The position numbers and the translations under genes are program-made. The notes beneath the pieces were generated by a model. It was not told the DNA's origin. It was given only the letters and a program-made list of their open reading frames with translations, and made no database searches. This document shows, piece after piece, positions 4,033 through 54,276 of a DNA stretch of 64,000 bases (position 1 is the stretch's first letter; each line of letters starts with the position of its first letter). Source of the stretch: Martelella sp. HB161492 (lineage in GTDB: Bacteria; Pseudomonadota; Alphaproteobacteria; Rhizobiales; Rhizobiaceae); the NCBI RefSeq assembly GCF_013184775.1, contig NZ_JAATVV010000005.1, positions 310,001 to 374,000 of the forward strand. Direction: 5' to 3'.

Positions 4033-4716
4033 ATGTCTCAGTTGCTGCTGGACGTGCGGGCCGTTGGCAAAACGGTGCGTTCGTCTTCACAGGCCATAGA
4101 AATTCTGAAGGGTGTTGACCTGTCGCTTCGACCGGGTGAGCGCCTTTGCGTGATCGGTGCGTCCGGTTCGGGCAAGTCGTCACTGCTTGAGATCCTCGGA
4201 ACCCTGTCGACGCCTGATACCGGTCAGGTCCTGCTGACGGGACAGGATGTCATGTCCATTGATGACCGCGCCCGCACGCAGCTGCGGCGGGAAACCATCG
4301 GTTTCGTGTTTCAGGGCTTCAATCTCATCGAACATATCAGCGCAGTGGAGAATGTCGCATTGCCGCTGCGCTATATCGGGCTTGGACGAAGGGATGCTCT
4401 GCATCGGGCGGCAGATGCGCTTGAGCGTGTCGGTCTCACCCATCGGCTGCGGGTTCGTGCGAGCCGCCTCTCCGGCGGCGAAAAGCAGCGCGTTGCCATT
4501 GCAAGGGCTCTGGTTACGAAACCGCGTCTGATTCTGTCGGATGAACCGACCGGCAATCTCGATGAGGAGACGGGGCGCCTTGTCCTCGATCTGCTGATGG
4601 AGAACGTCGGCGAGGGCTGCGGTCTGGTCATGGTCACGCATAATCTCGATCATGCCCGCCATTTTGATACCGTGCTCAGGATAGCGGGAGGCAGGTGCCA
4701 TGCCGCCGGGCTTTGA
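4033..4716 (+). CDS. ABC transporter ATP-binding protein, MacB/LolD-like
   Basis: A 227-residue cytoplasmic ATPase of the MacB/LolD/YknY group. It has Walker A (GASGSGKSS), a Q-loop ([11 protein letters not shown]), the signature [15 protein letters not shown], Walker B ([13 protein letters not shown]) and the H-loop ([10 protein letters not shown]). The [18 protein letters not shown] stretch is typical of this family. It overlaps the permease gene by 17 bp, so the two are translationally coupled. The start at 4033 follows GGCGGAG; the in-frame ATG at 3988 would add 15 residues without homology. In MacB proper the ATPase and permease are fused; here they are separate polypeptides. Confidence 0.88.
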
Positions 4717-5896
4717 AGCCGTTTTGGGCCGGCTTCGCGCCTTCGGCCTGCCGCGTTTGGTTTTCGCCGTTATCACACTGTCGATGGCGCTGAGCGGTAC
4801 GATTGCCAATTACACCCTGTCAGGCAATGCATTGCGGCATTTCGATCTGCTGCTCGAGCTGGATAATGCAGACACTTTCATCGTCAATGGCGCCGCAGAC
4901 GAGGTTGCAGACATCACCGATGGCCGCCTTGATGCGCTGGCACTTGCGGCACGCGGTCCAGAGCTTATCCAGCCATTGCTGCGGCCGGGTTTCAGCGTCA
5001 TTCCCTTCCGCTCTTTCGCCGTTTCCATTGGCGAAGGCGGGGGAACCCAGATTGCCAAAGTCTATTCTGTCGGCGAAGGCTTTGCCGCGCGGGCGGGGCT
5101 GTCGCTGAAAACGGCAGCGCAGTCAGACGACTGGCAAACCCGGCAGGATCACTGTCTGGTCGGATCACGGCTTGCAGGGCGGCTCGGTCTCGATGGGACC
5201 TCCTCCGGGCTCTGGATCAATGGTCGCTATTGCCGGATTGCGGGCGCGTTCGAGGCGCCGGTCAGGCCACCATTTGCCGATATTGCCGATTCGGTCCTGA
5301 TCCCGCTGCAGGAAACATCCTTCGAGGAAGCCTATACCAGCGGCTTTAGCTTTCTCATATCAGGGCCGGCGGCAGGCCTTGACGAGACCAGGCTCAAAGC
5401 ATTGCTCTCGCTGATCTTCGATGTCTCAAGGCTGACGATCTGGTCGGCGCAGCCGATCGTCGACCAGGCGCGCGGGCTGAAGGTCGTCGCATCCTCGATT
5501 TCGGTCGGCCTGAGCGCCATTATCCTGATGATCGGCGCGGTATCGATTGCCTCGCTGATGTCCTTTTCGGTGACCGAGCGCCGCCGTGAGATCGCCATCC
5601 GTCGTACGCTCGGCGCCACGCGCCTGCGTATCGTCGTTGAGATCGTCGAGGAAACGATACTGATCGCTTCCCTTGCGCTTGTGGTCGGCATCGCTGGCGG
5701 CATTGTGCTGGCGCATGTGCTCGAGCAGCCGCTCAGCCGGCTCATTATGGTCGGAAGTGACGGTGACAGGGATCGGAATGTCATGGCCATCGTCAAGGCT
5801 GTGCTGGGCTTTCTGCTGGTCTCACTGGCGGCAGGCATTGTCCCGGCGCTGAATGCGGCGCGAACAGATCCTGCGACCGTGTTGCGGGAGAGCTGA
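4700..5896 (+). CDS. ABC transporter permease, FtsX/MacB-like
   Basis: A 398-residue inner-membrane permease with the MacB/FtsX layout. One transmembrane helix lies near residues 15-35, followed by a periplasmic domain of about 220 residues. Three more helices lie near 255-285, 310-340 and 355-385. The TERRREIAIRRTLGATR segment between helices 2 and 3 is the conserved FtsX coupling region. It pairs with the preceding ATPase and with the adaptor and outer-membrane protein downstream to form a MacAB-TolC-like mechanotransmission exporter. The substrate is unknown. The downstream gene starts 10 bp after its stop. Confidence 0.87.
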   Translation: MPPGFEAVLGRLRAFGLPRLVFAVITLSMALSGTIANYTLSGNALRHFDLLLELDNADTFIVNGAADEVADITDGRLDALALAARGPELIQPLLRPGFSVIPFRSFAVSIGEGGGTQIAKVYSVGEGFAARAGLSLKTAAQSDDWQTRQDHCLVGSRLAGRLGLDGTSSGLWINGRYCRIAGAFEAPVRPPFADIADSVLIPLQETSFEEAYTSGFSFLISGPAAGLDETRLKALLSLIFDVSRLTIWSAQPIVDQARGLKVVASSISVGLSAIILMIGAVSIASLMSFSVTERRREIAIRRTLGATRLRIVVEIVEETILIASLALVVGIAGGIVLAHVLEQPLSRLIMVGSDGDRDRNVMAIVKAVLGFLLVSLAAGIVPALNAARTDPATVLRES

Positions 5897-43575: not shown

Positions 43576-44316
43576 TCAGTGAATTTCGAGATCGGCAGCA
43601 AAGCTGATGCCGACGGAGCGGATCGTCTTCATCGGCAGATCAACGTCGATCGAGGCGGCCTTCTGTTTCAGACGCTGGGTAATGGCATCAATGCCTCGTG
43701 CTTCGGGGCGGTCTTCGAAACCGAACGCTTCAGACAGGGTCGTGCGGCTGACCGGTTGTCCGCCAGCCTCGGCCAGAAGTGTCAGGAGCTGCATCTCGCG
43801 GGCGGTCAGATCGATCTTTCGTTCCGCCGGGGTGATCAGCAGATATCCGCGCAGGTCCAGTTTCCAGGCGGCCGCCTGAGCCTGTGGCACGGCAGCAATG
43901 TCTGGCAGCCGCCGTGCGAGATTGCGGATGGCCAGAAGCAATTCGTTGCCGTCGACCGGTTTGGTCATGTAGAGGTCCGCGCCCTCGCCATAGCCGCGAA
44001 TGCGGTCCTCACGGCCGGTGCGGGCAGTCAGCATGATGATCCCCGTGCGCCGGGCATCGGGAGCCAGCTCGGCCGCCAGATCAAAGCCGCTGCAATCGGG
44101 AAGGTTCACATCAAGTATGGCAATATCGAAACTGGCATTGCGCAGCGCCTTGTAGAACTCCAGGCCGGAAGCAGCCTCCGTGACAGCGTTGCCGCGCAGT
44201 CGCAGATATTCGGCAAGGCTCTGCCTGAGATCCCGATCATCTTCCACCAGCAGGACGCGGACCGGTGGCGTCGCTTCGCTGTCTTCATTCTCGTGCAGCT
44301 GCATCGTCTGCGTCAT
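43576..44316 (-). CDS. OmpR-family response regulator
   Basis: A 246-residue two-domain response regulator. The receiver domain has acidic residues in VLLVEDDRDLRQ, the phosphoacceptor D69 in IAILDVNLPDCSG, and the conserved Thr/Ser and Lys in IMLTARTG and YMTKPVDGNELL. The C-terminal winged helix contains KIDLTAREMQLLTLLAEAGG and IDAITQRLKQKAASI. It is divergent from the histidine kinase at 44386 with a 69-bp gap, a standard two-component pair. Candidate 10-bp direct repeats for it lie at 46525. Start codon choice (44316 versus 44304) is uncertain. Confidence 0.9.
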   Translation of the reverse strand: MTQTMQLHENEDSEATPPVRVLLVEDDRDLRQSLAEYLRLRGNAVTEAASGLEFYKALRNASFDIAILDVNLPDCSGFDLAAELAPDARRTGIIMLTARTGREDRIRGYGEGADLYMTKPVDGNELLLAIRNLARRLPDIAAVPQAQAAAWKLDLRGYLLITPAERKIDLTAREMQLLTLLAEAGGQPVSRTTLSEAFGFEDRPEARGIDAITQRLKQKAASIDVDLPMKTIRSVGISFAADLEIH

Positions 44317-44385
44317 CGCTATCAATATTGATTTCAGTCATATCTTTGGGGAACTATAGCGCAATCGTCAAGGAGAGCAGACTTC

Positions 44386-46431
44386 ATGTCAAACGGGGCC
44401 AGCCACGCTGGAGCAGCTTTTTACCGCTTTGCAGTCCGGGCATTTGTCATTCTCATGGCGCTGTTGATCCTGTCAGCTGCAAGGGGAGGGATGGCCGCTG
44501 CCGAACCATCTCTGCCAGATCCCGAGGTTTCCATTCTTACCGGCGCATCGGCAGATCTCACCCTGCAAGACCTGCTGGCAGATCCCAACCAATACCGGTT
44601 TGTCCAAACGGCGCGCAATCGCATTCCGGCCCGTTTCAGCCCCGATCCCGTCTGGATGAAGGTCCGGATCACGTCCCAGGATCCGATGCATGTTCTGATG
44701 TCGCTGACGCCGAGCTTCATCGATCTGATCGATGTCTATGTGGCGGATGAGGCCCCCGGTCTGACAGCAGCCGATTTCAGTCACAGCGCGCTTGGCGCGC
44801 GGCGACCTCTGGCGCAAAGCGGCTATTCCGGGCTCGATGAGGTTGTTCCGCTTGACCTTGATGCCGGCGCGACGAAAGTCATCTTTATCCGGGCTCAGGC
44901 CAGCGGCGTGACGCTGCTTCTCAATCTCAAGCTGTTCCAGCCTGTCGCCCATGTCATCCATACCGCCTATGTCACCACCAGCGGCGGCATGGTTCTGGGC
45001 AGCATGTTTCTGCTGTTTGTTACTCAGCTTTTGCTGTTCCGGCTCAATCGTGATCCGCTCTACCTATATCTTGCGCTCAGCACTGTCAGCGCGGCGGGCT
45101 ATCATTTCAGCAATCTCGGTTATTCCAGGCTGCTGCTGTTTCCCTCTGGAGGGACAGGCAACGACATCTTTCTTGCCTTCTTCTCCTCATTCGGCCTGAT
45201 TGTCGGCGCGCTCACGACACGGCAAGTGTTCGAATTGTGGGATCGAAAGCACTGGATGTACTGGTTTTGCATGGTCAGTCTGGCGATCGGTGTGGCATGC
45301 ACGCTTGCTGTCTTTGTCGGGCTGAACCTCTATTTCGCGCCGATCCGAAACCTGACGGTGCAGATTTTTGTCGCGGTGACGGCTTGCTACAGCCTTTTCA
45401 CGCTCAAGCGCGGCGATAGTTCGTCCTTTATCAGGACTGCGGCCTATCTTGTCCTGTTTCTCGGATTGACCGCCACCCTGCTCTATTACTGGAATGTTCC
45501 CTGGCTGCCGGAGGTGGCATCCAAGGGCTATGCCGTTGCCTGCCTGGTCGAGGCTCTGCTTCTGACCATCATGCTGAGCTGGCGCCTGCGCCTTGCCTCG
45601 CATCTGAATACCGCCCTGCAGACGCAAGCGCTTGAGGTCGCACGCGATGCGGAACAAAAGGCCGTCGATCTGGTGCAGGAGCGGACGCAGGAACTGGCGG
45701 CTGCCAAACAGACTGCCGAGGCAGCGCTGGCTGCAGAAATGGAGCAGAAGAAGGAGCAGGTTCGCTTCATGGAGGTTATTTCCCATCAATATCGCACCCC
45801 GCTGGCCACGGTGCGTTCCAATGTTGATACGATCGAGCTGAGCCTTGGGGCCGATGACGACGTCAACCGGCAGAGGATTGCCCGCATTCGGCGCGGAATT
45901 TCCCGTCTGGTGGAAGTGCTGGACGTGAATCTGGACCGCAGCCGTATTCAGGGATCGGCGCTCGAGCCGCAGAAATCGAGGGTTGCGATCAAACCATTGA
46001 CGCTCGACATCGTGCGGCGCGCGCGCGATCTGATGCCGGATGCCGACATCGTCATTTCGCTGCAGCCGCCGGTCGAGCAGCTGAAGATCGAGGTTGACGG
46101 ACATATGTTCGGCCTCGTTCTGATCAATCTTCTGGAGAATGCTGTGAAATATTCAGCGCCGGCTGGCGGCAGACCCGTCACGCTGGTCGTCGCTGCCCGT
46201 GATGACGCGGTACTCTTTTCCGTCGTGGATCATGGGATCGGCATCCCACCGGATGAAATCGAGACGGTGCTGGCTGCGAAAGTGCGCGGCTCCAATATTG
46301 ACGAGATCGGCGGAACCGGGCTCGGCCTTTCGCTGGTGTCCCGGATCATAGCCGCGCATGGCGGTAAACTGGATCTTGAAAGTGTCGAGGGACACGGGAC
46401 GACGGTCACCGTGCAGCTGCCGCGCCATTAG
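44386..46431 (+). CDS. Sensor histidine kinase with 7TMR-DISM input
   Basis: A 681-residue membrane kinase. A signal/anchor is followed by an extracellular beta-sandwich domain (about 40-195, 7TMR-DISMED2-like: VQTARNRIPARFSPDPVWMK). Seven transmembrane helices follow (about 205-400), then a coiled coil (LEVARDAEQKAVDLVQERTQ). The HisKA phosphoacceptor is H467 (EVISHQYRTPLATV). The ATPase domain has N box NLLENAVKYS, G1 DHGIGIPPDE and G2 GGTGLGLSLVSRI. DISM kinases sense extracellular ligands, often carbohydrates. It partners the adjacent response regulator and directly precedes the bacteriocin-like cluster. AAGGAGAG precedes the ATG. Confidence 0.92.
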   Translation: MSNGASHAGAAFYRFAVRAFVILMALLILSAARGGMAAAEPSLPDPEVSILTGASADLTLQDLLADPNQYRFVQTARNRIPARFSPDPVWMKVRITSQDPMHVLMSLTPSFIDLIDVYVADEAPGLTAADFSHSALGARRPLAQSGYSGLDEVVPLDLDAGATKVIFIRAQASGVTLLLNLKLFQPVAHVIHTAYVTTSGGMVLGSMFLLFVTQLLLFRLNRDPLYLYLALSTVSAAGYHFSNLGYSRLLLFPSGGTGNDIFLAFFSSFGLIVGALTTRQVFELWDRKHWMYWFCMVSLAIGVACTLAVFVGLNLYFAPIRNLTVQIFVAVTACYSLFTLKRGDSSSFIRTAAYLVLFLGLTATLLYYWNVPWLPEVASKGYAVACLVEALLLTIMLSWRLRLASHLNTALQTQALEVARDAEQKAVDLVQERTQELAAAKQTAEAALAAEMEQKKEQVRFMEVISHQYRTPLATVRSNVDTIELSLGADDDVNRQRIARIRRGISRLVEVLDVNLDRSRIQGSALEPQKSRVAIKPLTLDIVRRARDLMPDADIVISLQPPVEQLKIEVDGHMFGLVLINLLENAVKYSAPAGGRPVTLVVAARDDAVLFSVVDHGIGIPPDEIETVLAAKVRGSNIDEIGGTGLGLSLVSRIIAAHGGKLDLESVEGHGTTVTVQLPRH

Positions 46432-46524: not shown

Positions 46525-46559
46525 TGTTACATTGCGTTACACAGCATTACTTTGTAACA
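46525..46559. promoter_or_regulatory. 10-bp-phased TTAC repeats, candidate response-regulator site
   Basis: GTTAC, GTTAC and ATTAC end exactly at 46530, 46540 and 46550, so the element recurs every 10 bp, the spacing used by OmpR/PhoB-type dimers. TGTTACA (46525-46531) is also mirrored by TGTAACA (46553-46559). This lies between the histidine kinase gene and the first double-glycine peptide gene, 216 bp before that ATG. GATAAT at 46626 could be a -10 box. Binding by the regulator at 43576 is inference. Confidence 0.5.
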
Positions 46560-46774: not shown

Positions 46775-47122
46775 ATGACCAGCAAAGACCAAGTGACCGG
46801 AACCGCAAAAGCTGACGAAACCGAAATCAGCGAGCTGGGACCGGACGCATTGCAGGCCGCATCCGGTGGCAGTGTCGGGAGCGATCTGAAGGACGCGGCC
46901 GGCTGGGTGGATGACCATCACAGTGCCGTTGGGGCGACGATCGGTGCAGTTGCTGGCGGTATCTTCATCGCCCCGGCCGCAGCGGCTGGCGCTGCCACTC
47001 TGGCAGCCGGTGCAGCGGTCGTTGCGACCGGAGCGGTGATTGGCGCAGGGGTTGCGGATGCGGCCGATGCGGCAGTTCATGGTGCCGAGGATGCCGTTGA
47101 TGAACTCAAGAAGATCTTCTGA
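46775..47122 (+). CDS. Double-glycine-leader peptide 1, candidate bacteriocin
   Basis: A 115-residue precursor. The first 32 residues are a leader (KADETEISELGPDALQAASGG ends it minus the first K) with Leu at -12 and -7 and Gly-Gly at -2/-1, the pattern cut by C39 peptidases such as the one at 49229. The 83-residue core begins SVGSDLKDAAGWVDDHH, then is a long Gly/Ala/Val stretch (VGATIGAVAGGIFIAP, LAAGAAVVATGAVIGAG) with GxxxG-like spacing that could insert in membranes, and an acidic amphipathic end. GGAG six bases before 46775 sets the start. No Cys, so no disulfide or lanthionine. Paralogue of the next gene. The secreted product's activity is unknown. Confidence 0.8.
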   Translation: MTSKDQVTGTAKADETEISELGPDALQAASGGSVGSDLKDAAGWVDDHHSAVGATIGAVAGGIFIAPAAAAGAATLAAGAAVVATGAVIGAGVADAADAAVHGAEDAVDELKKIF

Positions 47123-47152
47123 CCTCTTCAAGACCCGATGGAGCGAATAGTC

Positions 47153-47539
47153 ATGATGGATGACAACAAGAAGTCTGCGGCCGCAAAGGCAGATGAAACA
47201 GAAATCAGCGAGCTGGATGCCGGGGATCTGCAGAACGCTGCGGGCGGCAGCCTGTGGGGCGATATCAAGGGCGCCGGTGAATGGGTTGGTCATGAGGTCG
47301 AGGAACATCCCGTCGCCGCTGTAACCGCTGTTGTCGGTGCAGTGACCGGGATTGGTGCAATTGCCGATGTGGTTGCCGTGGCGGGCAGTGATGCGGCTGC
47401 CATCCTTGGGGTGAGCACGGGCGATCTGGTCAGCGGTGCGGTCGGCAAGACAGCCTCCGCGATCGTCTCCAGCGGGGCCGTTTCCGGCACCATCGATGCT
47501 GCTGGTCAGGTCATCAAGGATAAGCTGAGCGGCTCCTGA
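47153..47539 (+). CDS. Double-glycine-leader peptide 2, candidate bacteriocin
   Basis: A 128-residue precursor, paralogue of the preceding one. The leader is again 32 residues, shares KADETEISEL with peptide 1 and ends DLQNAAGG, with Leu at -12 and -7 and Asp at -8, close to the double-glycine consensus. The 96-residue core starts SLWGDIKGAGEWVGHE and continues with a hydrophobic small-residue region (VAAVTAVVGAVTGIGAIADV, LGVSTGDLVSGAVGKT). No Cys. Two similar but distinct peptides side by side suggest a two-peptide pore-forming bacteriocin. GGAG at 47140 fits ATG 47153; ATG 47138 would add five residues. Confidence 0.8.
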   Translation: MMDDNKKSAAAKADETEISELDAGDLQNAAGGSLWGDIKGAGEWVGHEVEEHPVAAVTAVVGAVTGIGAIADVVAVAGSDAAAILGVSTGDLVSGAVGKTASAIVSSGAVSGTIDAAGQVIKDKLSGS

Positions 47540-47630
47540 CGCTGAACAGAACCCGATGACCGCCAGCCGCGATCGGCTGACGGTCCGCCTATGGACAGGA
47601 CAGGGTGAACCTTAACCAGAGGAGCAGAGA

Positions 47631-47846
47631 ATGGAAGCGGCGAAGGGGAAAGCCGATAAAGGGGCTGGGGCAGAGGGCACGCCTGAAGATGACCGGCAAC
47701 CGCCGAGAGGCGCCTTTGACGGCGGCTTTCTCGATAATGTTTGGGTCGGCAGCCTGCAACACAGGCCGAGCACTGGCCGAGACACCGGCAATCCGGCCGG
47801 GGCGGAGCCGAACGGGACCCGCAAAGCGGTCGATCTCGACCTCTGA
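47631..47846 (+). CDS. Possible 71-residue hydrophilic protein in the bacteriocin cluster
   Basis: A 71-residue open frame with an ideal ribosome site (GGAG, six-base spacing) lying between peptide 2 and the adaptor gene. It is rich in Gly, Ala, Lys, Glu and Arg, has no Cys, no membrane helix and no double-glycine leader. The composition is not that of a typical membrane immunity protein. It might be a chaperone, an immunity protein of unknown type or a chance frame; a longer frame at 47605-47934 overlaps it. I do not recognise it. Confidence 0.35.
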   Translation: MEAAKGKADKGAGAEGTPEDDRQPPRGAFDGGFLDNVWVGSLQHRPSTGRDTGNPAGAEPNGTRKAVDLDL

Positions 47847-47949
47847 TGCCGGTCCCAAACACGGCGTCCATCGATATTTAGCAATCTTGCCTGCCAGCTC
47901 GGATCGCAGGCGCATATCCGCATTTGAAGAATGAAAGTGCTGCAACGTC

Positions 47950-49227
47950 ATGTCCAGTTCTCCGGCGCCGGCGCGGAAGGTCTATCGTCAATCCGCGCTC
48001 AAGCATCTCCAGACCCCGGAGAGTGCAGACAGTCTGATGCGCGTCGTCGGCCCGAGCGGCTGGGTGGTTCTGGTGGCGATCGCCATTGTCATTGGCGGTG
48101 CCATCTATTGGGGGTTCTTCGGCACGGTGACGACCTTTGTGCAGGGCAAGGGTATTCTTGGTCCGGCCTTTGGTGAAACCAGGGATTTCGTCGTCACCCA
48201 TTCGGGCATCCTGCAGAGCCTGCCGCCGAAACTCGGTGATACGATTAAGAAAGGCGATCTCATCGCCGCGGTCGAAATCATTTCCGTTGCCCAGGACAAA
48301 CGCGAGGCTGACCGCACACTGCGCTCGCTGAAGGACGAACAGGCGCTGCTCCAGTCCTATTGGAATACGCTTCTTCCGCAGCAGCTTTCTGATCTGAAGA
48401 AGAAGGAAGCGGACCTTAGCAAACAGGCCGAGTGGGAACAGAAGCAGGTGGACAGCCGCCAGAAGATTCTGGATGGCTTCGAAAAAGCCAGTGCGACCGG
48501 TGCAATTACGGCACTTCGTCTCGATGAAGCCCGGGATTCCCTCATCCAGGCTTCGACGACCCTTGCACAGACAAAGCTCGATCTGGACCAGATCGCAGCC
48601 CAGCGGCTTGAGCTGGATAATCGGAAGACAACCGCCTTCCAGAGCATGAATGACCGGCTTTTGCAGGCCGAAGAAAACATTTCCGACCTTGAGGATACGC
48701 TGCAGAGTGGCGGCAAGGTCTATTCCGATATTGACGGCAAGGTCATCGACGTCGAGGGCAGCCCCGGGGCCTATGTGGAACCCGGCTCGCCGCTGTTGAC
48801 GGTTCAGCCGGTCGATGAAAGCATTGACGGCGTGTTTTTTGCCAATCCGCTCAACGGCAAGAAGATCACCGCGGGCATGGAAGTCAATGTTGCGCCCTCG
48901 ACCGTGGAGGCGGCACGGTTTGGCACGATCCGCGGCAAGGTGGTTTGGGTCAGCCAGGATCCGCAAAGCGACACGGCTGTCGAACGACAGATCGGCAATG
49001 CGACACTGGCCAAGTCGCTGACTGGCGACGTCGCGCCGATTGCCTTCGGCGTGATCCTCGACCGGGACAAGCAGGCGCCTTCCGGTTTTCAGTGGACGTC
49101 AGGCCATGGTCCCGACATGCAGATTCCGCCCGGTACGCTTGCTGATGCCGATGTGGCCGTCGAATCCGTGCCGCCGATCGTTCTGGTGATCCCCGCGATC
49201 CGACACCTGCTCGGCCTGGATCAGTAA
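47950..49227 (+). CDS. HlyD-like secretion adaptor, NHLP/NHLM bacteriocin type
   Basis: A 425-residue membrane fusion protein. One transmembrane helix (about 35-60: GWVVLVAIAIVIGGAIYWGF), then VQGKGILGPAFGETRDFVVT lipoyl half-motif, a long helical coiled-coil (about 115-255, QLSDLKKKEADLSKQAEWEQ) and the second lipoyl half (GGKVYSDIDGKVIDVEGSPG), then a barrel domain. It matches the secretion protein of the NHLM-type systems (TIGR03794 as I recall), which joins a peptidase-ABC and a second ABC to export bacteriocins. It is directly followed by those two transporters. Confidence 0.83.
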   Translation: MSSSPAPARKVYRQSALKHLQTPESADSLMRVVGPSGWVVLVAIAIVIGGAIYWGFFGTVTTFVQGKGILGPAFGETRDFVVTHSGILQSLPPKLGDTIKKGDLIAAVEIISVAQDKREADRTLRSLKDEQALLQSYWNTLLPQQLSDLKKKEADLSKQAEWEQKQVDSRQKILDGFEKASATGAITALRLDEARDSLIQASTTLAQTKLDLDQIAAQRLELDNRKTTAFQSMNDRLLQAEENISDLEDTLQSGGKVYSDIDGKVIDVEGSPGAYVEPGSPLLTVQPVDESIDGVFFANPLNGKKITAGMEVNVAPSTVEAARFGTIRGKVVWVSQDPQSDTAVERQIGNATLAKSLTGDVAPIAFGVILDRDKQAPSGFQWTSGHGPDMQIPPGTLADADVAVESVPPIVLVIPAIRHLLGLDQ

Positions 49228-49228
49228 C

Positions 49229-51418
49229 ATGCAGGCAGCAAGCAAGAAGGGTAACGGTTTTGCGCAGCGCGGGCTGTTTCGGCGCCATCAGACCCCCACA
49301 ATCCTGCAGATGGAGGCGGTGGAATGCGGCGCCGCCTGCCTGGCGATGGTGCTGGCCTATCACGGGCGCTGGGTCGCGCTGGAACAGCTGCGGATGGAAT
49401 GCGGCGTTTCGCGCAACGGCTCCAATGCATGGGACCTGATCGAGGCGGCCCGACGTTTCGGCTGCGAGGCCAGGGGCTTCAAGGTCGGGCTGGAAAAACT
49501 GCGTGAGCTGACCCTGCCGGCGATCATCTTCTGGCGGTTCAATCACTTCATCGTCCTGGAAAAGGTCGATCGCAAGGGCGCTGTCATCAATGACCCGGCT
49601 CAGGGCCGGAGGCGGATCGGCTGGGACGAGATGGACCGCGATTTCACCGGCGTCGCAGTGACCATTGTACCCGCGCAGGATTTCACCACTGGCGGTGAAA
49701 GACCCTCGGTTCTCCGCGAATTGCGTCAGTTCTCACGCGGAACTGCCGCCCCCTTCGCCTTCATACTGCTCGTCACCCTGCTTCTGGTCATTCCGGGTAT
49801 TGTCATTCCGGCGCTCAGCAAGATCTATGTCGATGATTTTCTTGTCGGTGGGCAGCGGGATTGGGTCAGACCGCTGCTGACGGCCTTTGTGGTCGCGGGC
49901 AGTCTGAGCATGCTGCTCAGCTTCCTGCAGAAACACTTCCTGATGCGTTTTTCTGCCAAGGTCAGTATCGGCATGACCCGTCAGGTGCTCTGGCGGCTTC
50001 TGCATCTGCCGATGGACTTTTTCAACCAGCGTTTCGCCGGTGACATTTCGGGCCGCCTCGGTTCGGCCGCGCGGGCTGCCTCGATGGTGTCGGGGCCGCT
50101 GGCCTTCAGCATTGTCGGGCTGATCTCCATTGTCGTCTACGGGGCGTTGCTGCTTTCCTACAGTGTGCCACTCGCTTCACTGGTGGTCGGCATGGCACTC
50201 GTGAACCTGCTGATGGCACGCATCGTCTGGCTGCGGCTTGAGAATGCGCGGCATCTGCTGGCCAAGAATGGTGCCGAACAGGCGTCATCGATCATGAGCG
50301 GGCTGTCGGCGATCGAAACGGTAAAGGCGGCAGGTCTCGAAGACGATCTTTTCGCCCGCTGGGGCGGTCTTCAGGCACAGCTTGTCTCGTTGTCTCAGAC
50401 AATCGGCCGCCAAACCCAGCTTCTTGGCCTTTTGCCCGGCATCTGTTCATCGCTTGGCAACATCGCCATTCTGGGTCTCGGCGCGCTATTCGTTCTCGAC
50501 GGCCAGCTTACCGTTGGCGACCTCGTGGCCTTTCAGGTTCTGGCCGGAAGTTTCAACGGTCCCGTGTCCGGCCTGGTCGGGCTCGGTTCATCACTGCAGA
50601 CCACGCAGGTCGATCTCAGCCGCCTGGACGACGTTCTCAATTACGGGACCGCTGCCGGCGCTACAAGGGAAACACCGGCGGGCCCGCAGCGCAAGCTTGT
50701 CGGTTCTCTCGAGCTTCGCAATGTCACCTTCGGCTACAGCCGTCGCGAAGAGCCGCTGCTCAAGGATTTTTCGCTGACCGTGCAGCCCGGTATGCGTGTC
50801 GCGCTCGTTGGCGCAAGCGGGTCAGGCAAATCGACAATCGGCAAGCTGGTGTCGGGCCTTTATCAGCCCTGGGAAGGGACCATCCTGTTTGACGGCATCG
50901 CTGCGGACAGGATCGACAGATCGAGTCTGACATCGTCTCTGGGTGTTGTCAGCCAGGATATCCACATCTTCAGCGGCAGCCTGCGCGACAATATCACCCT
51001 CTGGGACACATCGATTTCCGATCAGGCCCTGCATCGTGCCGTCAGTGATGCCTGCCTCGACATGCTGCCGATCGTGCGTGATGCCGGGCTCGATGCCACA
51101 TTGTCGGAAGCCGGACGAAACCTGAGCGGCGGCGAGCGCCAGCGGCTCGAGATCGCACGGGCGCTTTGCAGGGCTCCCTCATTGCTGGTCATGGATGAAG
51201 CGACCTCGGCGCTCGATCCCGTCACGGAACAAGCCGTGGACATGAACCTCAGACAGCGCGGTTGCGCCTGTCTCATCATCGCCCAGCGGCTATCCACCAT
51301 TCGCGACAGCGACGAGATCATCGTCCTCGATCGTGGACGGATTGCCCAACGCGGAACCCACGACACCCTTATTGCTGAGCAGGACGGCCCCTATGCGCGG
51401 CTTGTTGCGGCGCTGTGA
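49229..51418 (+). CDS. C39-peptidase ABC transporter, NHLP-type (TIGR03796-like)
   Basis: A 729-residue peptidase-containing exporter. The N-terminal C39 protease has catalytic C33 (ILQMEAVECGAACLAM), H106 (FNHFIVLE) and D122 (INDPAQGRR). It should remove the leader after Gly-Gly while the transmembrane domain (about 165-450) exports the core. The ATPase has Walker [10 protein letters not shown], signature LSGGERQRLEIARAL and Walker B LLVMDEATSALD. The H-loop histidine is replaced by Gln686 (LIIAQRLSTIRD), whereas the partner transporter keeps His. It begins one base after the adaptor stop region and ends GTGA-coupled to the next gene. Confidence 0.93.
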   Translation: MQAASKKGNGFAQRGLFRRHQTPTILQMEAVECGAACLAMVLAYHGRWVALEQLRMECGVSRNGSNAWDLIEAARRFGCEARGFKVGLEKLRELTLPAIIFWRFNHFIVLEKVDRKGAVINDPAQGRRRIGWDEMDRDFTGVAVTIVPAQDFTTGGERPSVLRELRQFSRGTAAPFAFILLVTLLLVIPGIVIPALSKIYVDDFLVGGQRDWVRPLLTAFVVAGSLSMLLSFLQKHFLMRFSAKVSIGMTRQVLWRLLHLPMDFFNQRFAGDISGRLGSAARAASMVSGPLAFSIVGLISIVVYGALLLSYSVPLASLVVGMALVNLLMARIVWLRLENARHLLAKNGAEQASSIMSGLSAIETVKAAGLEDDLFARWGGLQAQLVSLSQTIGRQTQLLGLLPGICSSLGNIAILGLGALFVLDGQLTVGDLVAFQVLAGSFNGPVSGLVGLGSSLQTTQVDLSRLDDVLNYGTAAGATRETPAGPQRKLVGSLELRNVTFGYSRREEPLLKDFSLTVQPGMRVALVGASGSGKSTIGKLVSGLYQPWEGTILFDGIAADRIDRSSLTSSLGVVSQDIHIFSGSLRDNITLWDTSISDQALHRAVSDACLDMLPIVRDAGLDATLSEAGRNLSGGERQRLEIARALCRAPSLLVMDEATSALDPVTEQAVDMNLRQRGCACLIIAQRLSTIRDSDEIIVLDRGRIAQRGTHDTLIAEQDGPYARLVAAL

Positions 51419-51429
51419 GAGCCAGGCTA

Positions 51430-54276
51430 ATGGACCAGATCGAAGACCAGCAACATCATCTGCCTGTTCCGCTCCTTCGAGCCCAGGCGGGAGCCCGGAT
51501 GCCGCGGGCAATACCGCTTGGCAAGGTGGAAGGCGTCTTCTGCCTCGCCGCCGGTCAGGCCGATGTCTTCGCGGTTGATCCAAGGCAGGCGATCTACGGC
51601 CCGCTCAACCACCTCTTCCGTCTTTCCGAGGGCGCAGTGTTTGCTGGCCTTGCAGACGTCGAGGAAGGCGAGGACAGTCCCGATATTCTTGTCATTCCTG
51701 CGCCCGGTTGCACTATTTTGTCGTGCGAAGCGCTGACGCAGTCGGACGGACTGGATCTCTGGACGGCACGCCTGCTTGCAGCAGGCAATACCGCATTGCC
51801 GCCACGCGGCATTTCGCTCATCGATGCCGGACATCAGGTCGTCATGCAGGCAGGGGCGGCCGTGTGTGCGTCGGCTCCGCTTCTCTGGCTTGAAACCAAT
51901 GGCACGCTTGTAAGCTGCAGCGGCGGCAGAGTGGCGGCCGGGCTCGTACCGATCACGCCCGAATTCTGGATGCAGGCGCCGGACGGCGTGACGGCACGGG
52001 TCCTTGGTAGCCGTGACCTCTTCGAAGCAGGGGTGCTGCAAACCGCCCGCAACGCAGCCATGATCCTGGCCCTTGCCAGCATAGGTGCCTGCCTTGAGCG
52101 GATTGACCGTCACGCCGATGAGGTTCTTCATCGCCGTGAAACCGCGACAAACCGGCGGCTCGAAGCCACGACCGGCGCTGTCGCAGCGCTTCTCCACCGC
52201 AAGGCCAGGCAGCCCGCTGGTACACTGGAACCCGATGCGCTGATGCGCTGTGCAGCCCGTGTGGCTGCGGCGGATGGGATCGAGCTGCGCGCTGTCGCGC
52301 CATCACGACCGCAACAGCGCGGCGAAGCCATTGCCGCGATCGCCCGTGTGAACCACGTTCGCGCCCGACGCGCGCGCCTGCCTGCGGGCTGGTGGCGCGG
52401 CGATCACGGCGCATTTGTCGGGTTTAGTGACGCCGGCGAACCGGTCTGCCTGCTTCCGGCCCGTTTCGGATATCACGCCATCGATAGTGACGGCAACGCG
52501 CGTCGGGTGGATGGCGCTCTTGCCGCCAGCCTCGCGCCGGAAGCCTATATTTTCTATCGCCCGATGCCGGACACCAGGATCACCGCCCGCATTCTGCTCG
52601 GCTTCGTGTTCAAGAACAACATCCGCACTTTCGCGACAATTCTGATTGCATCGGCCTGCATGGCCTTGCTGGCGCTTCTGACGCCGCTGGTGTCCGGGCA
52701 TATCTTCGATACGATCATCCCGAAGGCGGAATATGGTCAGCTCGGTCAGGTGACGATCGTGCTGGTGGCGGCCGCTTTCGCCACTCTTGGATTTGGCATG
52801 GCCCGCACGCTCACGCAACTCAGACTGCGCGGCCGGGTTGATGCCGTGGTGCAGAGCGCGGTCTGGGACCGGCTTTTGCGACTGCCGGCCAGTTTTTTCC
52901 AGCAATATGAGGTCGGCGATCTGGCCAGCCGCGCGGCAGGGATCAATGCGCTCAGTCGGGCGCTGAACGGATCAACCCTCTCGGCCGTGTTCAGCGGCCT
53001 GTTTTCCGTCGCAAGCCTCGCCATGATGCTCTATTACCAGCCCATGCTGGCGCTGATCGCCGTCGGCTTCGTGGTTCTGGTTATCCTGATTAGCTGCGTC
53101 TTTGCCTATCTTCAGCTCTTGTATCAGCGTGATCAGTATGCGCTGAGCGGCAAGCTGGCGGCCCGCACCTTTCAATTCGTTTCCGGAATTTCGACCCTCA
53201 AGGTCAACGGCGCCGAACGGCTGGCCTATGCCGACTGGACCGAGCGTTTTGCCCGCGACATGCATTTTCGCCTGCGCTCGAATATCCTGACCTATAGCGA
53301 GGGATTGCTGACAGGCGGGGTGCTGATTGTCTTTCAGATTCTGACGCTGGCCTTCTTTGCCTTTTATGTGGACAATGTTTCGACCGGAACCTTTATCGCA
53401 TTCAACACCGCCTTTGGACAGTTCTATGCCGGCTTTTCCGGGCTTGCCGGCGCGCTCGTCACGCTCATGTCGCTGAAGCCGCTCTATGAGCGCACGGAAC
53501 CCATTCTGGCTGGCGAGCCGGAGGTTTCCGGCACAAGAACACAGCCGGGCGACCTGACCGGGCGGATTGCCATCAGCCATGCAAGCTTTGCCTTCGAAAA
53601 CACTGAGCGGGCTATCCTCGACGATATTACGATGGAGATCCACGCCGGTGAATTTATCGCCATTGTCGGCCCGTCGGGAAGCGGAAAGTCGACCCTGATG
53701 CGGCTCCTCCTCGGCTTCCTCACGCCGCAAAAGGGAACGCTCACCTATGACGATCATGATCTGGCAAAGCTCGACCCATCGTCACTGCGCCGCCAGCTCG
53801 GCGTAGTTCTGCAGGACGGAAAGCTGCTGACCGGCAGTATCCATGACAACATTACTGCCAACGGAGCCTATAGCGAGGCAGAGGTCTGGCAGGCTGTCAT
53901 CGATTCCGGGCTTGAGGCGGATATCAGGGCAATGCCGATGGGACTGCAGACACCTGTCGGCGAAGGGGCGGCCACATTCTCCGGCGGGCAGAAGCAGCGC
54001 CTCCTCATCGCGCGGGCACTGGTCCGCAAACCGCGCATCGTTCTCTTTGACGAGGCGACGAGTGCGCTCGACAACATCACCCAGGCACAGGTCAGCACCG
54101 CCCTTGAGCGCATGAAAGCGACGCGCATCGTCATCGCACATCGCCTGTCCACGATCCGCCATGCTGACCGGATCTATGTCCTGGAACACGGCCGGATCGT
54201 GGAGCAGGGCAGCTATGATGCTTTGATCAAGCAGGACGGCGTCTTTGCGGTGCTGGCGAAACGTCAGCTGTCATAA
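51430..54276 (+). CDS. Second NHLP-type bacteriocin export ABC transporter (TIGR03797-like)
   Basis: A protein of about 948 residues without a C39 protease. An N-terminal region of roughly 390 residues (LPVPLLRAQAGARMPRAIPL at the start, with a cyclic-nucleotide-binding-like beta fold suggested by SEGAVFAGLADVEEGEDSPD) precedes six transmembrane helices. The C-terminal ATPase has Walker A GPSGSGKST, signature FSGGQKQRLLIARAL, Walker B IVLFDEATSALD and H-loop VIAHRLSTIRHADRI. In NHLM systems the two ABC proteins form a heterodimer. The start may instead be GTG 51415, which overlaps the previous stop by 4 bp. Confidence 0.88.
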   Translation: MDQIEDQQHHLPVPLLRAQAGARMPRAIPLGKVEGVFCLAAGQADVFAVDPRQAIYGPLNHLFRLSEGAVFAGLADVEEGEDSPDILVIPAPGCTILSCEALTQSDGLDLWTARLLAAGNTALPPRGISLIDAGHQVVMQAGAAVCASAPLLWLETNGTLVSCSGGRVAAGLVPITPEFWMQAPDGVTARVLGSRDLFEAGVLQTARNAAMILALASIGACLERIDRHADEVLHRRETATNRRLEATTGAVAALLHRKARQPAGTLEPDALMRCAARVAAADGIELRAVAPSRPQQRGEAIAAIARVNHVRARRARLPAGWWRGDHGAFVGFSDAGEPVCLLPARFGYHAIDSDGNARRVDGALAASLAPEAYIFYRPMPDTRITARILLGFVFKNNIRTFATILIASACMALLALLTPLVSGHIFDTIIPKAEYGQLGQVTIVLVAAAFATLGFGMARTLTQLRLRGRVDAVVQSAVWDRLLRLPASFFQQYEVGDLASRAAGINALSRALNGSTLSAVFSGLFSVASLAMMLYYQPMLALIAVGFVVLVILISCVFAYLQLLYQRDQYALSGKLAARTFQFVSGISTLKVNGAERLAYADWTERFARDMHFRLRSNILTYSEGLLTGGVLIVFQILTLAFFAFYVDNVSTGTFIAFNTAFGQFYAGFSGLAGALVTLMSLKPLYERTEPILAGEPEVSGTRTQPGDLTGRIAISHASFAFENTERAILDDITMEIHAGEFIAIVGPSGSGKSTLMRLLLGFLTPQKGTLTYDDHDLAKLDPSSLRRQLGVVLQDGKLLTGSIHDNITANGAYSEAEVWQAVIDSGLEADIRAMPMGLQTPVGEGAATFSGGQKQRLLIARALVRKPRIVLFDEATSALDNITQAQVSTALERMKATRIVIAHRLSTIRHADRIYVLEHGRIVEQGSYDALIKQDGVFAVLAKRQLS

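Follow-up and report, generated by a model that had tools for sequence, protein, structure and literature searches.

A 64,000-nucleotide stretch of the 5.28 Mb genome of Martelella sp. HB161492 (G000; positions 310001–374000 of contig NZ_JAATVV010000005.1, hereafter the window) carries two paralogous genes for double-glycine peptide precursors, pepA and pepB, directly upstream of a three-gene NHLM-type exporter. This peptide–exporter operon adjoins a newly recognised two-component system, composed of a 7TMR-DISM sensor histidine kinase and an OmpR-type response regulator. It is likely that the operon encodes secreted double-glycine peptides governed by this two-component system, whatever their role. 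The whole reading that we favour, in which unmodified peptides leave the cell through the NHLM-type exporter under dedicated regulation and antagonise neighbouring bacteria, is put forward tentatively, its chance being close to even but not reaching it. A first-pass annotation of the window had placed the locus at 46775–54276, which is right for the peptide and exporter genes but omits the kinase and regulator (43576–46431) and the direct repeats ahead of pepA (46526–46550), all of which seem to belong to the functional unit. The features, in window coordinates, are:

46775–47122, plus strand: pepA precursor, 115 aa, 32-residue Gly-Gly leader, 83-residue acidic Gly/Ala-rich core
47153–47539, plus strand: pepB precursor, 128 aa, 32-residue Gly-Gly leader, 96-residue acidic core
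47950–49227, plus strand: HlyD-like adaptor (TIGR03794, 259 bits, cut-off 156)
49229–51418, plus strand: C39 peptidase/permease/ATPase (TIGR03796, 925 bits, cut-off 853)
51415–54276, plus strand: second permease/ATPase with about 270 extra N-terminal residues (TIGR03797, 801 bits, cut-off 709)
46526–46550, plus strand: triple direct repeat GTTAC-N5-GTTAC-N5-ATTAC, predicted regulator site about 225 bp before pepA
44386–46431, plus strand: sensor histidine kinase (Pfam 7TMR-DISMED2, 7TMR-DISM_7TM, HisKA and HATPase_c)
43576–44325, minus strand: OmpR-type response regulator, divergent from the kinase (Pfam Response_reg and Trans_reg_C)
47631–47846, plus strand: 71-codon open reading frame (ORF) of doubtful status, with a relative only at the M. 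alba (G001) locus among four other loci searched by blastp

The cassette and its proposed control elements

As first annotated, pepA and pepB are adjacent paralogues whose leaders end in Gly-Gly and share the segment KADETEISEL, and neither core contains cysteine. The kinship of the two cores exceeds what their composition would give, with a global alignment score of 64 compared to 8.6 ± 11.3 for shuffled sequences (0 of 500 shuffles reached 64). Comparison with the copies in M. alba (locus L029) gave 72–73% identity and ratios of nonsynonymous to synonymous divergence (dN/dS) of about 0.16 for pepA and 0.14 for pepB, the differences being concentrated at codon position 3; given this identity and a dN/dS near 0.15, both behave as real genes. 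AlphaFold2 predicts helical structures for both precursors, though with low confidence (mean pLDDT 41 and 42). No match better than E 0.028 emerged from searches of PHROGs and of solved structures, and those obtained were taken as chance. The 71-codon ORF is doubtful as a third component or an immunity protein, as its relative, found at one of the four other loci, shares 46% identity with a nearly flat codon-position pattern over 59 codons (dN 0.43, dS 0.68, dN/dS about 0.64), and it holds no hydrophobic stretch.

The adaptor and the two ATP-binding cassette (ABC) proteins are encoded by adjacent genes and all score above the curated cut-offs of their models, bearing out their annotation as an NHLM/NHLP export system. 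The C39-ABC protein contains the segments ECGAAC, FNHF and NDPA, expected to carry the Cys, His and Asp of the peptidase active site. The combination of a Gly-Gly or Gly-Ala leader with a C39 peptidase transporter, as in class II bacteriocins and microcins, is found here as well.

Across 13 Martelella genomes, a match to the kinase (E 1e-50 or better) was obtained in five of the six exporter-positive and in none of the seven exporter-negative genomes. The kinase gene adjoins the operon in G000, G001 and G009, and lies about 12 kb off in G012 and about 1.16 Mb off in G007. Short ORFs with kinase similarity, seemingly a broken copy, also adjoin the G012 operon (L019:13709-14385). Regulators of four relatives share 62–83% identity with that of the window, and many positions of the C-terminal domain are invariant.

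GTTAC recurs every 10 bp upstream of pepA and also of a third peptide gene of this genome. This unlinked gene (L046:8448-8783, contig C1) encodes a leader ending in Gly-Ala and is preceded by four GTTAC-type repeats; the 18 kb read there contain no NHLM-type exporter. Scanning the 13 genomes with RTTAC-N5-RTTAC-N5-RTWAC at zero mismatches gave six rows, representing five sites, each ahead of a peptide gene, and none in the control; as this three-unit pattern was shaped after such sites had been seen, the result speaks for specificity rather than for an independent discovery. The two-unit repeat GTTAC-N5-GTTAC, with zero or one mismatch, was present in six of eight upstream regions, all six from kinase-bearing genomes, and was matched there by 0 to 7 of 300 Markov sequences. 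The other two regions, both from the kinase-less G003, are without it (62 and 211 of 300 Markov sequences were as good). In the window alone, the two-unit repeat with at most one mismatch has two matches, a number that 3 of 100 shuffles reach. A four-unit pattern derived from this genome alone (up to three mismatches) was discarded, since it missed the pepA site and gave three rows (two sites) compared to 11 hits in its control, although the G007 site was one of those two. The kinase–regulator pair seems to control these peptides.

Peptide repertoire in Martelella and beyond

With pepA as query, peptide matches were obtained in 5 of the 13 Martelella genomes, and with a 15-member profile in 6 of 13. 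Because five of the six positive genomes had contributed to the profile, G003 alone counts as an independent gain. Exactly these six genomes also carry the exporter, a co-occurrence with p of about 6e-4 if genomes were independent, which they are not; the expected pairing of peptides and exporter is supported. The profile finds three peptides each in G000, G007 and G009, two each in G001 and G003, and seven in G012. Both number and sequence vary between species. Except for the unlinked gene of G000, the peptide genes lie directly upstream of the exporter in G000, G001, G007, G009 and G012.

Charge and identity statistics were calculated for 18 of the 20 profile matches, omitting two G007 peptides identical or near-identical to those of G009. 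Leaders of these 18 peptides span 27–42 residues and cores 41–98; the last 22 leader residues share 51% mean identity compared to 32% for the cores (153 pairs). Three related cores end in Trp-Cys, the only cysteines among the 18 (G009_1, L020:4517-4867; G007_1, L021:7519-7842; G012_7, L019:13060-13371). In G003, the exporter genes are preceded on their strand by a 2544-codon ORF (L055:9996-17630).

The two-peptide bacteriocin of the first-pass annotation is supported in part. Its short double-glycine leaders, exporter co-occurrence and lack of a nearby modifying enzyme stand, but a fixed complementary pair, as in class IIb systems, is rejected because relatives carry two to seven paralogues and this genome a third copy.

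In a search beyond the genus, the profile found matches in 4 of 297 genomes of the family, three of them Martelella and the fourth G203 (a borderline Nif11-leader-like peptide, E 0.0097), and in 1 of 385 genomes of the class, namely this one. A plasmid origin was considered and dropped, tblastn of pepA at E 0.01 having found nothing in 72,556 plasmid records. The exporter occurs in 9 of the 297 family genomes, three of them Martelella. By our own reading of the sequences, which is not a family scan, Nif11-like leaders stand beside the exporter at L049 (G203), L050 (G202) and L053 (G298), and nitrile-hydratase-like ones at L051 (G225). At L054 (G174) a single candidate ORF (4449-4781) contains the leader-like segment LSELENIVAGG, and a motif scan of L052 (G287) gave nothing convincing. 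The core of the Nif11-like G203 peptide (L049:8559-8930) starts with SLFGDI, resembling SLWGDI in pepB, a likeness that possibly links long- and short-leader precursors. In an exporter tree, the six Martelella rows group together on a long branch of their own (0.93). Their neighbours are uncertain and the tree carries a long-branch warning, so it is not read as showing descent from Nif11 systems.

Candidate functions of the peptides

We propose that a signal of some kind leads the 7TMR-DISM kinase to phosphorylate the OmpR-type regulator; the regulator would then bind the direct GTTAC repeats upstream of pepA and of the unlinked third gene and so switch the peptide genes on. The precursors would be cut behind Gly-Gly (or Gly-Ala) by the C39 domain of the first ABC transporter protein, and both ABC proteins, together with the HlyD adaptor, would export the 41- to 98-residue cores, the TolC channel presumably being encoded elsewhere. 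The exported peptides may then act as a bacteriocin-like multi-peptide set. Variable sets, the contrast between conserved leaders and divergent cores, patchy distribution and a dedicated regulator were counted in favour of antagonism. Weak matches to Pfam Bacteriocin_IIc in 2 of 15 members (best E 0.0064) and to the NCBIfam lactococcin G-alpha model in one member (E 0.029) are not conclusive.

Several observations weigh against this proposal. All 18 cores are acidic (net charge −3 to −10), and family-model scans gave pepA and pepB themselves no match to any known bacteriocin family. Both genes are under purifying selection with no sign of an arms race, on the single comparison with M. alba. 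No convincing immunity gene was found among ORFs of at least 40 aa outside the known genes in five loci (G003 not among them), in a scan by hydrophobicity that a non-membrane or distant immunity gene would escape; a single same-strand small ORF, at one of the five loci (G012), reaches a Kyte-Doolittle hydropathy above 1.6 over 19 residues. The peptides of G003 lie outside the exporter operon, one about 2.5 kb past the second ABC gene on the opposite strand and one on another contig, and this genome has neither a kinase match nor a repeat. G009, with kinase and exporter, is missed by the strict pattern and has the two-unit version only, and that pattern owes its shape to some of the sites it recovers. 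Acidic cores, the want of a convincing immunity gene, purifying selection and the precedents of EbfG and Nap peptides, described below, are the reasons for setting a bacteriocin-like role below even odds. Secretion of the peptides against or among neighbouring bacteria is probable.

Two other roles are real rivals of antagonism. As extracellular matrix or adhesion proteins, the peptides would resemble EbfG1-4 of Synechococcus elongatus, four co-transcribed small double-glycine proteins required for biofilm formation whose secretion is assisted by the C39 protein PteB; redundancy among them has been suggested, and EbfG1-3 showed amyloid behaviour in an E. coli test system (PMC4997328, PMC9981879). 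Martelella, too, has several peptides per genome, and no convincing immunity gene was found for them. However, the likeness is one of description and not of sequence comparison, the low-confidence pepA and pepB models are helical rather than beta-rich, and patchy presence in one genus suits weapons as well as matrix. We regard a matrix role as conceivable but unlikely. Alternatively, some or all of the peptides may be autoinducing signals sensed by the neighbouring kinase, which is co-inherited with the exporter; the strict repeat sites found are confined to peptide genes. Against signalling stand the length of the cores and their several copies per genome, the distant kinase of G007 and the presence of peptides and exporter in G003 without a kinase match. 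A signalling role is held to be quite unlikely. A bolder proposal unites signal and weapon: the kinase would sense the exported peptides of its own cassette and, by way of the regulator with its strict sites at peptide genes alone, autoinduce a variable peptide arsenal, a Gram-negative counterpart of the peptide-regulated bacteriocin regulons of Gram-positive bacteria. This idea is speculative and distinctly improbable, and the 7TMR-DISM receptor type is not known to sense double-glycine peptides.

The same peptides could instead be precursors of ribosomally synthesised and post-translationally modified peptides (RiPPs), with the modifying enzyme encoded elsewhere, as in many NHLP/Nif11 systems. 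Membership of the exporter family, the Nif11-like or NHLP-like leaders in four of the six other Rhizobiaceae loci and a radical S-adenosylmethionine (SAM) gene near precursors on a Shinella plasmid, annotated with both leader kinds, all point this way. However, no modification enzyme, LanM-type synthetases included, was detected among the eight ORFs of the locus or, in a Pfam scan at E 1e-8, among ten flanking ORFs (a subset of the 61 window ORFs of at least 220 aa), LanM and radical SAM enzymes not having been searched genome-wide. A search for YcaO at E 1e-5 was positive in 5 of 14 control genomes but in none of the 13 from Martelella, which speaks against the usual azole chemistry of thiazole/oxazole-modified (TOMM) RiPPs. 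Lanthionine rings are excluded for most peptides because 15 of the 18 cores have no cysteine, the other three having one each. In addition, the NHLP and Nif11 leader models (TIGR03793 and TIGR03798) matched neither pepA nor pepB up to E 1, nor any of the 15 members of the peptide alignment up to E 0.1, placing these leaders outside both families. These scans agree with the initial view that short double-glycine leaders are paired here with an exporter of NHLM type and that no modifying enzyme lies nearby. Modification from a distance appears very improbable.

With unmodified peptides as the favoured reading, the NHLM-type exporter is separated here from its usual long leaders and modification enzymes, and the predicted regulator, binding site and small regulon make it testable how the peptides are switched on and what they are for. 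Should they prove antimicrobial, they would make up an alphaproteobacterial class of acidic, unmodified multi-peptide products; otherwise they would be a further case of bacteriocin-like double-glycine peptides with another job. Were the autoinduction proposal true, the arsenal would ride on an exporter that elsewhere serves modified natural products.

Comparison with known systems

Double-glycine peptides of Gram-negative bacteria were reportedly surveyed by Dirix et al. in 2004. Class IIa microcins are unmodified. Class II microcins of Enterobacterales share with the Martelella peptides a Gly-Gly or Gly-Ala leader and a C39-ABC protein with a membrane fusion protein, but their description includes a cognate immunity protein and just one C39-ABC protein (PMC9746304), whereas Martelella has two ABC proteins and no convincing immunity gene was found there. 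EbfG/PteB of Synechococcus elongatus is similar in having a multi-gene operon of small double-glycine proteins and C39-dependent secretion; it differs in the biofilm role shown there and in belonging to an unrelated organism (PMC4997328, PMC9981879). An island of Neisseria likewise encodes several Gly-Gly peptides, the Nap peptides, alongside a C39 peptidase and a putative regulator, but these peptides are cationic, measure 16–36 residues when mature, are accompanied in the locus by a putative immunity gene and are reported not to kill competitors (PMC11798529). Both cases indicate that double-glycine peptides need not kill competitors.

A second short-leader case beside an NHLP-type exporter, independent of Martelella, is found on a plasmid of Bradyrhizobium sp. 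CB82, where repeated small genes with 16-residue leaders MIRELIDTELEVVAGG (L060:14537-18397) lie about 1.5 to 5 kb downstream of the exporter, with no modification enzyme among 14 annotated features of an incomplete gene table. A tblastn search located five matching places on this plasmid and none in any other plasmid record.

The first-pass annotation had called the system undescribed. This is fair for the peptide family itself, of which the literature matches listed (Martelella bacteriocins, short or unmodified NHLP leaders, Rhizobium double-glycine peptides, NHLM/TIGR03796) hold no description; Rhizob-, Agrobacterium, NHLP and Alphaproteobacteria all go unmentioned in the available part of a paper on microcins of plant-associated bacteria (PMC13174018). 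However, double-glycine precursors outside NHLP/Nif11 near HlyD and C39 genes were already described in cyanobacteria. Wang et al. (2011) assigned 121 of 290 cyanobacterial double-glycine precursors to the NHLP and N11P families and left 169 of 290 outside them (PMC3140520). Those precursors (28–164 aa) are likewise encoded close to genes for HlyD and C39 transporters, and clusters of most groups have more than one, but in another phylum and, in the available part of that paper, with no mention of a dedicated two-component system (PMC3140520). The NHLP/Nif11 (N11P) precursors of Haft et al. (2010), paired with the TIGR03794/03796/03797 exporter, share with Martelella the three-gene exporter, a conserved leader end before Gly-Gly, paralogous expansion and variable cores (PMC2887384). 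Martelella differs in its short leaders unmatched by those models, its long, almost cysteine-free cores, the lack of a modification enzyme nearby and its own kinase–regulator pair. As the exporter and related precursors were described in these two studies, the Martelella cassette is a variation on a known theme.

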